Part shown: positions 364-60,524 of the stretch, in pieces
Position numbering within the stretch: the first letter of the stretch is position 1
How the letters are laid out: the number at the start of each line of letters is the position of its first letter
The notes under the pieces: model-generated
Databases searched by the model: none
The model's input: the letters and a program-made list of their open reading frames with translations, nothing else
Told to the model about the DNA's origin: nothing
Made by a program: the position numbers and the translations under genes
Origin: a virus
Reading direction: 5' to 3' (one strand)
Virus record (IMG/VR): IMGVR_UViG_3300042465_003982
Span: 1-61,117 of that record
DNA length: 61,117 nucleotides

Positions 364-555
364 ATGTATAAGCACGGAGAAAAAGTAGTAAATTCGGAAA
401 ATAGCCGTCCTTGCACCGTAATTGGATCTCAAACCTCACGGGCAAAGGATAAGAAGGGTATGATTTACGAAGAGACTGAATATTGCGTTCGGTATGAAGA
501 TGGTTCTACCGATTGGATTTCGGCAGAAAGCACAAAGAAGTTCCTAATCGACTAA
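364..555 (+). CDS. Hypothetical protein, 63 aa
   Basis: A small soluble protein with no recognised family. It has a charged middle (KDKKG) followed by alternating strand-like residues (YCVRYEDGSTDWI), which could be a small beta-barrel such as a Tudor/SH3-like fold; this is only an impression. It begins immediately after the deaminase-like stop, and its stop overlaps the next start (TAATG), so it is translationally coupled within a small accessory operon. No function is proposed. Confidence 0.6.
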   Translation: MYKHGEKVVNSENSRPCTVIGSQTSRAKDKKGMIYEETEYCVRYEDGSTDWISAESTKKFLID

Positions 556-821
556 TGGCATATCGAATCCACATTGATATTCCTCTCATGTCCTCCTCCC
601 AAGAGGAGGCTGTGGTGGCTGCTAAGGCCATCATGGAGCGTCTAGCCTCCCCAGAGGCCCTAGAGTGCGTAAAGGCCCATAGTGGCACACAGGTCAACTA
701 TCGCCTTGGTGACGATACTGACCGCCAGAAGAGCAATTATTTGGTTTTGACTCCTTCTGGGCATGTTACTAACCAAAAATGCAGAATTCTCTTGACAGAG
801 GAGCCATCATCTGTAGAATGA
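555..821 (+). CDS. Hypothetical protein, 88 aa
   Basis: The start is placed at the ATG that overlaps the previous stop (TAATG), not at the in-frame upstream TTG at 513. The N-terminus is MAYRIHIDIPLMSSS, followed by an Ala/Glu-rich helix and a C-terminal strand-rich part. No family is recognised. The base composition is more balanced than that of the tail genes further on. The tRNA-unit promoter lies inside its 3' end. Confidence 0.6.
   Translation: MAYRIHIDIPLMSSSQEEAVVAAKAIMERLASPEALECVKAHSGTQVNYRLGDDTDRQKSNYLVLTPSGHVTNQKCRILLTEEPSSVE
792..819 (+). promoter_or_regulatory. Sigma70-like promoter for the tRNA unit
   Basis: TTGACA at 792-797 and TAGAAT at 814-819 are separated by exactly 16 bases, matching the spacing at other putative promoters in this window (gp32, gp55, dut). 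The predicted start near 825-826 is just upstream of the chain of hairpins and the tRNA. It is embedded in the end of the 88-aa gene. Confidence 0.6.
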
Positions 822-825
822 TGGT

Positions 826-904
826 GTAGCAGGGAACGACAAAGAGCAAATCGTTCCGCCCTAACGGGAAAGCGAGAACTAACTCGCCAGCACATAAGGT
901 GCTG
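826..904 (+). ncRNA. Candidate structured RNA (four consecutive hairpins) upstream of tRNA-Ile
   Basis: No gene fits here. Four hairpins follow one another: GGAACGA 833-839 with TCGTTCC 851-857; CCC 859-861 with GGG 866-868; GCGAG 872-876 with CTCGC 883-887; CAGCAC 888-893 with GTGCTG 899-904. The tRNA begins five bases later. A sigma70-like promoter ends at 819, so the hairpins and the tRNA would be one transcript. It could be a processing leader, a stable small RNA (T4 makes such RNAs from its tRNA cluster) or a decayed tRNA; it does not fold as a normal cloverleaf by eye. Confidence 0.4.
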
Positions 905-909
905 ATATT

Positions 910-982
910 GGGTAGGTAGTTCAATCGGCAGAACCTTCCGCTTATAACGGTAGATGTGTGGGTTCGATCCCCACCCTACTCA
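910..982 (+). tRNA. tRNA-Ile(UAU), reads AUA
   Basis: A complete 73-base cloverleaf is visible: acceptor GGGTAGG/CCTACTC (one G-T pair), D-stem GTTC/GAAC, anticodon stem 936-940/948-952 with one T-T mismatch, loop CTTATAA with anticodon TAT at 943-945, 5-base variable loop, and T-stem GTGGG/CCCAC with loop TTCGATC. The discriminator is A and CCA is not encoded. AUA is used heavily in the AT-rich tail genes, so this tRNA probably supports their translation in a host where AUA is poorly served. Confidence 0.9.
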
Positions 983-996
983 TTGGAGATATAAGT

Positions 997-1149
997 ATGA
1001 TTATGACTGAAGAAGATAGAAAAATCGTACTAGTTCTCAAGGATGAGATTGAAAAGATCAAGGTCAATATGATTCTGGAGAATCGCAAAATTGACCAAAT
1101 TGTTTCAGTTTTAAGTAAAATTATTCAAAAGGAGAATAAAAATGATTAA
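997..1149 (+). CDS. Small hypothetical protein, 50 aa, coiled-coil-like
   Basis: The ATG at 997 is preceded by GGAGAT at 985-990. The product is almost entirely charged helix with heptad-like hydrophobic spacing (I/V/L in EIEKIKVNMILENRKIDQIV), so a short coiled coil is likely. It overlaps the next gene by 8 bases. No family is recognised. Confidence 0.6.
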   Translation: MIMTEEDRKIVLVLKDEIEKIKVNMILENRKIDQIVSVLSKIIQKENKND

Positions 1150-1453
1150 TACTAATGTTTTTGGTCTGCGTTGGCTTGCTGCGTTTACTGCGTTCGGTGC
1201 TCTGCTTCTGCATCTTGATAATGCAAAGGCTCCAATTGTCTGGTCGTTCGTTGGCCTGACGGTCTTCCTACTTATTTGTGAAATTCGTGCGCTTCAGAAG
1301 CACATTTGCCAACTACAAAAGGAATTTGACAATGTGACTTTTAATAATGAAATTCACAGCGTTCGAAGTGATATGTGGCGAAATTTTGATGAACTTCACA
1401 CTCGTATTGAGCAGTGCTCAAATAGCTGCACAAAGGCGAAGAATCGTATCTGA
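1142..1453 (+). CDS. Small membrane protein with C-terminal coiled coil
   Basis: 103 aa. Two hydrophobic segments are visible (about residues 9-26 and 32-48, the second VWSFVGLTVFLLI), followed by a soluble helical tail with four Cys/His-containing turns (KHICQLQK, EQCSNSCTK). It would sit in the host inner membrane with the tail on one side. Phages use such small proteins for superinfection exclusion or lysis control, but nothing here identifies either role. It ends 24 bases before a strong terminator. Confidence 0.6.
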   Translation: MINTNVFGLRWLAAFTAFGALLLHLDNAKAPIVWSFVGLTVFLLICEIRALQKHICQLQKEFDNVTFNNEIHSVRSDMWRNFDELHTRIEQCSNSCTKAKNRI

Positions 1454-1477: not shown

Positions 1478-1506
1478 AACCCTCTGCTCCAGCAGGGGGT
1501 TTTTTA
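1478..1506 (+). terminator. Rho-independent terminator
   Basis: The stem 1478-1488 (AACCCTCTGCT) pairs with 1491-1501 (AGCAGGGGGTT) around a two-base loop, with one T-G wobble, followed by a T run. It closes the early-type operon containing the tRNA and the membrane protein, and separates it from the late promoter that follows at once. Confidence 0.85.
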
Positions 1507-28215: not shown

Positions 28216-29751
28216 ATGGCTATAAATTTATTTGGATTTAAATTTGGTAAAGATGAAAAAGCAGATAAACAAAATTTGCAAAATTTCACGCCCCCAGAGG
28301 AGTTTGATGGGGCGTATACCCTTGAAGGTTCTGGCGTTTATGGAACATTCATTGATTTCATGGGATCTGCTAAAGATGAACATGCTACAATTGCTCAATA
28401 TAGAGCAATGGCGTTATATCCAGAAGTAGATACAGCTATTGATGAGATTACAAATGAATCTATTGTTAATGGAAATGATAGAAAACCTGTAAAGTTAGAT
28501 TTAGCAAAAATAAATTTTTCTGAAAATGTTAAAAGCAGAATTTATTATGAATTTGATAATATTTTAAATTTATTAGATTTTCATGATAAATCGTATGAAA
28601 TTTTTAGAAGATGGTACATTGATTCAAAATTATATTTTTATATTTCAATTGATATGGATAATCCGTCTGATGGTATTAAGCAATTAGTCCCATTAGATTC
28701 CACAAAAATTAAAAAAGTTCGTAAAGTAAAATCTACTAATGCAAAAAGCGGAAGTGATACTTTATCAATTATAAAAGATGTTGAAGAATTTTATCTATAT
28801 TCAAATAATGATAAAAATTCTATAATAGGTACTAGTTCTGGAGGTGTTAAAATTTCTCCAGATTCTATTTGTTATGTACATTCTGGAATGGTTGATATGA
28901 ATTCTAAGAGAGTCTTAGGATTCCTCCACAAGGCAATTAGACCTCTAAACATGCTTAGACAGGTCGAAGATGCAATAGTCGTATATCGCATCTCCCGCGC
29001 TCCAGAAAGAAGAATATTCTATGTGGATGTTGGTAATCTGCCAAAACAAAAAGCAGAACAATATGTTCGTGAATTAATGAACAAATATAGAAATCGTATG
29101 ATTTATAACCAGACAACTGGTGAAATCAAAGACGATAGAAATCAAATGGCAATGCTTGAGGATTTCTGGCTACCCAGAAGAGAAGGTGGTAGAGGAACTG
29201 AAATTACCACCTTGGACGGGGGACAAAATCTAGGCGAATTGACCGATGTTGAATATTTTAAGAAAAAGCTATATTTTGCCTTAAATATTCCTCCATCAAG
29301 ATTAGTAGGAGAAAATGGTTTTAATCTTGGAAGATCTGCTGATATAACCAGAGATGAAGTAAAATTTTATAAATTTATAGAAAGATTACGATATAAATTT
29401 TCTGGAGTATTTTCTCAATTATTAAGAGTTCAATTAATTTTAAAGGGAATAATAACAGAAGAAGATTGGAATCTTATTTATCCTAACATCAATTTTGTAT
29501 TTAATAGAGATTCTTATTTCAATGATCTAAAAGACGCTGAAATACTTTCGGCAAGAATGGATCTAGCTGCGTCAATGGAGCCTATGATTGGCAAATATTA
29601 TTCCACAAATTATATTAGAAAAAATATACTAAAACAATCCGAAGAGGAAATTGAAGAATTAAATAAAGAAATGGCGATTGATCTAGCAAAAATGGAAGAA
29701 GATCAAATGAAACAGTTGCAGATGCAACAACTAGTTCAGGGCCAAGAATAA
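28216..29751 (+). CDS. gp20: Portal vertex protein gp20
   Basis: 511 aa (T4 gp20 524 aa). Recognised from YRAMALYPEVDTAIDEITNE, VYRISRAPERRIFYVDVGNL and GFNLGRSADITRDEVKF. The dodecamer is the gate for DNA entry and the platform for prohead assembly. GGAG lies five bases before the ATG. The gene is a composition mosaic: about 18% GC at 28561-28620 against about 43% at 28921-28980, in the part that encodes the conserved central clip-stem region. Confidence 0.95.
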   Translation: MAINLFGFKFGKDEKADKQNLQNFTPPEEFDGAYTLEGSGVYGTFIDFMGSAKDEHATIAQYRAMALYPEVDTAIDEITNESIVNGNDRKPVKLDLAKINFSENVKSRIYYEFDNILNLLDFHDKSYEIFRRWYIDSKLYFYISIDMDNPSDGIKQLVPLDSTKIKKVRKVKSTNAKSGSDTLSIIKDVEEFYLYSNNDKNSIIGTSSGGVKISPDSICYVHSGMVDMNSKRVLGFLHKAIRPLNMLRQVEDAIVVYRISRAPERRIFYVDVGNLPKQKAEQYVRELMNKYRNRMIYNQTTGEIKDDRNQMAMLEDFWLPRREGGRGTEITTLDGGQNLGELTDVEYFKKKLYFALNIPPSRLVGENGFNLGRSADITRDEVKFYKFIERLRYKFSGVFSQLLRVQLILKGIITEEDWNLIYPNINFVFNRDSYFNDLKDAEILSARMDLAASMEPMIGKYYSTNYIRKNILKQSEEEIEELNKEMAIDLAKMEEDQMKQLQMQQLVQGQE

Positions 29752-60200: not shown

Positions 60201-60500
60201 ATGGGATTAGAAAAAACAAAAATTAATGATCAGGGTATTTCTGTTTCTTATTGGCACATTGATTATGTTACAGTAGGACATAGACAAAAAAGAGTTACTA
60301 TTTGTTTATTAGGTTATATTGATAAAACAAAAAGAGATCAAGGTCTAAATCCAATTTTAGCAGAGGTATATCACATTTGGCCTGATGCTTATGATACAGC
60401 ATTTGGTCCAGCAGTTTTGGATGCAGAAGGAAATCCAACCCACGCTGCATATCAGTGGATAAAGGCAAATACAGAATTTTCTGACGCTGTAGATGCTTGA
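60201..60500 (+). CDS. Small protein downstream of the fibre
   Basis: 99 aa with a GGAG-type ribosome site. It contains ISVSYWHIDYVTVGHRQKRV, then ILAEVYHIWPDAYDTAFGP. No family is recognised. Its place just after the fibre suggests an accessory or capping role; its sequence is not chaperone-like. Confidence 0.5.
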   Translation: MGLEKTKINDQGISVSYWHIDYVTVGHRQKRVTICLLGYIDKTKRDQGLNPILAEVYHIWPDAYDTAFGPAVLDAEGNPTHAAYQWIKANTEFSDAVDA

Positions 60501-60524
60501 CATTCCTAGTTTTTAGTGTATTAT
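60497..60524 (+). promoter_or_regulatory. Sigma70-like promoter for dut
   Basis: TTGACA (60497-60502), 16-base spacer, TATTAT (60519-60524). The dut ATG at 60531 follows after six bases, so the predicted start is the ATG. The -35 lies at the stop of the preceding gene. Confidence 0.7.

Follow-up and report, generated by a model that had tools for sequence, protein, structure and literature searches.

A regulatory RNA of E. coli, the 3'ETS-leuZ sponge, is made by RNase E from the 3' spacer of a tRNA transcript. The tRNA cluster of bacteriophage T4 gives rise to the stable RNAs C and D, non-tRNA species whose function is unknown. Theta ribozymes of gut phages are HDV-like, are located at the 3' end of tRNAs and have been proposed to play a role in tRNA maturation (PMC10879173). 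Concerning structured RNAs at phage promoters, putL of HK022 is described as an element of about 70 nt just downstream of PL, which forms two long stem-loops and an RNA triplex (PMC9378689).

The DNA analysed here as a whole (the window) is a 61,117-base record of IMG/VR. It is part of a T4-like phage and encodes a portal protein of PHROG 213 at 28216-29751; the nearest named portal proteins are about 51% identical and are found in cyanophages. Between a promoter and a tRNA-Ile(UAU) the window carries a leader with four hairpins. As with small RNAs derived from tRNA precursors such as 3'ETS-leuZ, a non-tRNA piece would be freed by tRNA processing; unlike 3'ETS-leuZ, a 3' spacer in E. coli, the piece is a structured 5' leader in a phage. 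RNAs C and D of T4 would be alike by description in being stable non-tRNA RNAs transcribed with phage tRNAs, but in the window a single RNA and a single tRNA are served by one nearby promoter. In common with the theta ribozymes, as described in PMC10879173, the leader is a structured RNA directly beside a phage tRNA; unlike these it lies 5' and not 3' of the tRNA, and no Rfam model of a self-cleaving ribozyme, theta and HDV-like ones included, matches it. Like HK022 putRNA in the description of PMC9378689, it is a short phage RNA with neighbouring stem-loops directly after a promoter, yet it consists of four short hairpins followed by a tRNA in place of two long stems. The leader is filed under none of tRNA-precursor-derived small RNAs, theta ribozymes and putRNA, and the parts of the open-access PMC literature that were consulted yielded no description of such a leader.

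Promoter, leader and tRNA-Ile(UAU) in the window

The locus comprises the following elements.

555..821, + strand: predicted ORF of 88 aa, the syntenic anchor upstream of the tRNA in relatives, with the promoter within its 3' end
792..819, + strand: putative sigma-70-type promoter TTGACA-N16-TAGAAT, 11/12 consensus bases, hexamers at 792-797 and 814-819, 16-nt spacer
826..909, + strand: leader RNA of type A, predicted start at about 825-827, predicted RNase P cut at 909/910
833..857, + strand: hairpin 1, stem 833-839/851-857 of 7 bp, invariant, with an 11-nt loop CAAAGNRCAAA
859..868, + strand: hairpin 2, stem 859-861/866-868, CCC-UAAC-GGG, invariant
872..887, + strand: hairpin 3, stem 872-876/883-887, GCGA(G)...(C)UCGC, 4-5 bp
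888..904, + strand: hairpin 4, stem 888-893/899-904, its 3' end 5 nt from the tRNA, with compensatory changes that preserve the pairing
905..909, + strand: A/U-rich single-stranded linker AUAUU preceding the tRNA, U at -1
910..982, + strand: tRNA-Ile(UAU) without encoded CCA (910-982 by Rfam, 909-983 by ARAGORN)
997..1149, + strand: ORF of 50 aa, proposed to share the transcription unit of the tRNA, with an SD-like GGAG just after the tRNA
1142..1453, + strand: ORF of 103 aa, probably the last gene of this unit
1486..1506, + strand: terminator-like hairpin with T tract, the probable end of the unit

The first-pass annotation had proposed a promoter ending at 819, and TTGACA-N16-TAGAAT is indeed found there. 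Its description of four hairpins leading, without any gene, into a tRNA-Ile(UAU) holds for the hairpins, which all lie between promoter and tRNA, and for the tRNA directly after them; the promoter itself, however, sits in the 3' end of the ORF at 555-821 and not in empty DNA. The further statement that the spacing is that of the other promoters of this genome carries little weight, as a single other + strand site reaches 11/12 with a spacer of 16 (60497-60524). This second promoter-like site, TTGACA-N16-TATTAT, lies where one ORF ends, shortly ahead of another that by eye is dUTPase-like.

The tRNA scores 58.8 bits against the Rfam tRNA family (RF00005, gathering cut-off 29) and is likewise called by ARAGORN. 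In 14 long ORFs of the window AUA makes up 236 of 656 Ile codons, so a tRNA with UAU anticodon fits the codon use of the phage. The proposed end of the unit is to be read with care, since terminator-like matches around 1486-1506 occur at chance frequency (3 found, 3.1 expected).

Relatives were collected through the 88-aa ORF. A search with the ORF gave 31 loci, and a profile of it gave 343 loci, of which the best 80 of 343 were kept; 58 of these best 80 are the loci L097-L154, two of the 58 being contigs already present as L028 and L029. The clade of the window, compared downstream of the ORF, comprises 23 rows (the window and L006-L027), and the outgroup comprises 67 rows (L028-L036 and L097-L154). 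The alignment of the ORF protein (A2) has 13 members with 43-97% identity to the protein of the window; searches of Pfam and PHROGs returned no match for it.

Promoter-like sites with at least 10/12 consensus bases are as frequent on the + strand of this AT-rich window as expected from a first-order Markov model (43 against a mean of 43.0), so that the promoter at 792-819 needed comparative support. Both hexamers are recognisable at a spacer length of 16 in 22 of the 23 clade rows, the exception being L027 with CAGAAT as -10 hexamer, while the spacer sequence varies. It is this conservation, together with the place of the promoter before the tRNA in outgroup loci (below), and not the consensus match alone, which renders the predicted promoter credible.

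Fold, conservation and copies of the type A leader

The leader (822-909) folds at -28.5 kcal/mol as compared to a shuffle mean of -18.1 (z -4.29), and 0 of 200 shuffles folded as well. A single G separates hairpins 1 and 2 in this fold. A search of the leader with the covariance models of Rfam 15, at E up to 10, found no family. The possibility of a decayed tRNA was rejected, as neither ARAGORN nor Rfam gives a tRNA signal within the leader. A coding leader was rejected by eye: in the window and in most type A relatives the reading frame that starts with the ATG at 821 meets a stop immediately, and it is open in L011-L013. An intrinsic terminator at hairpin 4 was likewise rejected by eye, the hairpin being without a U tract. 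Between the hairpin 3 loop and the D stem of the tRNA a pairing (GAACUA/UAGUUC) was seen by eye; it is partly lost in L021 and likely due to chance. GC skew at 4-kb steps takes no turn near 800, so nothing marks a replication origin there.

Over nine distinct type A sequences, all of one clade, 51 of 56 columns are invariant in the core of the leader (832-887). In the same set, 9 of the 18 four-fold sites of the neighbouring ORF are invariant, as are 35 of its 79 third positions (p 4e-4 and 9e-9, respectively, against the core), and the tRNA has 67 of 73 invariant columns. Comparing the window with L025, identity amounts to 51/56 in the core, 68/73 in the tRNA and 181/237 in the ORF at 555-791; the excess of the core over this whole ORF stretch is modest (p 0.016), and over its four-fold sites (12/22) it is clearer (p 6e-4).

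Pairing conservation in relatives, the check set out by the first-pass annotation, was found in two forms: compensatory change in hairpin 4 and near-invariant sequence in hairpins 1-3. In hairpin 4, C-G is replaced by U-A in L017, L025 and L021, at three different pairs, and G-U wobble changes occur in L009 and L021; in L021 the hairpin is expanded with its pairing kept. Leaving L021 aside, the two double-sided pairs of hairpin 4 were reached by 9 of 500 shuffles. Hairpin 3 has lost its fifth pair in L020, L021 and L025, three of the nine distinct sequences. Without any variation, hairpins 1 and 2 offer no covariation evidence either way. A selected non-coding RNA is the best reading of the type A leader from these alignments.

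A covariance model of type A (R2) run over 67 sources matched at this locus only, in 22 sources, some of which are overlapping pieces of one contig; one other match (E 2.1) was read as noise. Over 14 whole records R2 gave one match in each of the 10 records of type A, one stray match of 7 bits, and no type A in records with the other leader type (type B, below) or without a leader. An 18-base core pattern was found in 16 stretches of viral contigs, whose names are those of the clade's 16 type A loci, and in bacterial genomes in four unrelated contexts, read as chance; a corresponding type B pattern recovered from viral contigs the four known contigs only. When 50,697 phage records were searched by BLASTN, the leader gave short matches only (E about 10), and with leader plus tRNA as query all of the matches listed lay in or adjoined the tRNA. 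To judge from these searches, the type A leader is not a dispersed repeat.

Type A, type B and leaderless loci

Within the clade of 23 rows three states were found at the same place: type A in 17 rows (9 distinct sequences), type B in four (L010, L015, L018 and L019; 3 distinct) and none in two (L016 and L027). Accordingly, 90 or 113 nt separate the -10 box from the tRNA in type A, 61 or 102 nt in type B and 9 nt in leaderless rows. Type B consists of other hairpins and folds at z -6.1 and -4.8 relative to shuffles; an Rfam search of the type B leader of L010 gave matches that were all far below the gathering score. The ORF of L010 is 97% identical to that of the window, yet its leader is of type B. 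In each of the 12 distinct leaders of types A and B the last hairpin is followed by 5-6 A/U-rich nt, of which the final one, at -1, is U. The ORFs of 50 aa (997..1149) and 103 aa are common to phages with type A, type B or no leader.

The tRNA-Ile anticodon-loop motif is present in 53 of the 67 outgroup rows (35 distinct); 14 rows have none by motif, and in several of these a tRNA-Ile(UAU) was placed by ARAGORN. Among the 35 distinct outgroup loci, which are interrelated and so not independent, 16 have a promoter of at least 10/12 ending 8-19 nt before the tRNA and the rest are without such a promoter there; in L126, where the script had anchored elsewhere, a promoter before the tRNA was seen by eye. 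The leader is absent from 16/16 promoter-bearing loci, and the old arrangement is thus promoter and tRNA with almost nothing in between. On this comparison of loci, the promoter just before tRNA-Ile(UAU) is old and the leader is a later insert in the clade of the window.

Seven distant relatives carry an unusual syntenic tRNA-Ile(UAU) (L030 4267-4337, L033 4263-4333, L035 4263-4333, L113 3375-3445, L130 3291-3361, L132 3334-3404 and L144 3277-3347). It forms a full cloverleaf, in which the D loop of 4 nt (CAGC) lacks GG and the T loop reads GGCARCA in place of the usual TTC type; all of 154 pair cells pair (100%), and 11 of 22 pairs show double-sided changes (0/500 shuffles). In L030 no tRNA-Ile is called by ARAGORN, and an Rfam search with E up to 1 gives no match at this place. 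These features suggest a tRNA whose elbow has been rebuilt. Separately, L113, L115 and L125 contain a structured RNA closed by a AAGCGCAC/GUGCGCUU stem, located about 10-105 bases after the ORF stop and before the unusual tRNA-Ile; that of L113 has no match in Rfam. L030-L036 encode a tmRNA with the tag ANTRAFAMAA a few kb downstream.

In a midpoint-rooted tree of the upstream sequence (up to 770 bases), type A includes the deepest branch (L025 and L026), leaderless L016 falls inside an A group, and L027 was too short for inclusion. Both of the changes that type B needs on this tree are forced by well-supported branches, which indicates repeated refilling of the slot. The downstream tree, partly in conflict with the upstream one, requires three changes for B, one of them forced by well-supported branches, and unites the two leaderless rows in one clade.

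Such turnover would also fit an insert without function, be it a tolerated or selfish palindromic sequence or a decayed tRNA: the leader was lost in L016 and L027 and replaced in the four type B rows with no other visible change, and promoter-bearing outgroup loci lack it. We nevertheless hold this explanation to be very unlikely, as conservation of the core roughly equals that of the tRNA among phages with half of their four-fold sites changed, hairpin 4 shows compensatory changes, and the leader has no second copy and is not tRNA-like to ARAGORN or Rfam. The presence of a different RNA, or of none, at the same spot suggests instead an exchangeable small RNA that is freed when the tRNA is cut out. 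More speculatively, the 5' end of the tRNA might be an exchange slot, where unrelated cassettes (A, B or empty) are swapped between a fixed promoter and a tRNA that offers a ready-made 3' processing signal, reflecting a changing host partner, e.g. a defence system or a regulatory RNA; we regard this extension as rather doubtful.

Proposed function of the leader

We propose that the leader is a functional non-coding RNA cassette at a tRNA promoter, which would be freed as an RNA of 80-85 nt by RNase P and may act in trans; we put the probability of this reading at roughly 0.45. RNase P cuts precursors at the 5' end of the tRNA and prefers a single-stranded leader, such as 5-6 A/U-rich nt with U at -1. 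As the insert lies between the expected start and the tRNA, it would be transcribed first and then cut off at the tRNA 5' end. RNA polymerase would start at about 826 and place leader, tRNA and two short ORFs in one transcript, and cleavage at 909/910 would create the mature 5' end of the tRNA together with the 3' end of the leader. Hairpin 1 would guard the freed RNA close to the 5' end, hairpin 4 and AUAUU at the 3' end, with the nearly invariant core of hairpins 1-3 as its probable working part; in other members of the clade the same slot would be filled by a different RNA, type B. Layout and conservation fit a tRNA-processed small RNA, in that the leader adjoins the expected tRNA processing site and is predicted to be co-transcribed.

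The first-pass annotation had offered the leader either as a guide for processing or as a separate stable RNA. The pairings and the position of the promoter relative to the tRNA are conserved, but a need for processing is weakened: tRNA-Ile stands without a leader in two close relatives and in all promoter-bearing outgroup loci, so the leader is not needed for the tRNA, and an added function of the RNA is favoured. A purely cis-acting leader, whose hairpins protect the 5' end or tune how RNase P gains access or how strongly tRNA-Ile and the two ORFs are expressed, and which is degraded once freed, would account for its constant place directly upstream of tRNA-Ile in the same orientation, for the tRNA-proximal hairpin and A/U linker as the sole feature common to A and B, and for the lack of a copy elsewhere in the 14 records. 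Still, L016, L027 and the promoter-bearing outgroups manage without it, and invariance of both loops and stems in hairpins 1-3 is not expected from a role in structure only; we consider this explanation unlikely. As the tRNA works leaderless in relatives and the core is conserved in its loops and not in its stems alone, a function of the RNA's own seems likelier to us than help to the tRNA.

Finally, the nascent leader could bind RNA polymerase by the promoter and suppress downstream pausing or termination in the manner of put, which acts by way of the zinc-binding domain in the beta' subunit of the polymerase. It is placed directly after the promoter with hairpins 1 and 2 one G apart, just as HK022 putL, of about 70 nt with two stem-loops, is described just downstream of PL (PMC9378689), and a terminator-like hairpin follows the unit. 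Adjacency to the promoter apart, the fold does not contain the two long stem-loops of that description, in which putL forms an RNA triplex (PMC9378689), but four short hairpins; the layout of type B differs, and the unit apparently has a terminator of its own at its end. A put-like role appears very unlikely to us.

If the preferred reading of a freed small RNA is right, the leader would represent an unlisted family of phage RNAs. It would also exemplify a simple way of expressing a small RNA without a terminator or processing site of its own, by placement between the promoter of a tRNA and the tRNA itself. With A, B and no leader occurring naturally in near-identical surroundings, a ready-made comparison is at hand for the role of the RNA, and it would be worth looking at the 5' leaders of further phage tRNAs, which are passed over in annotation.
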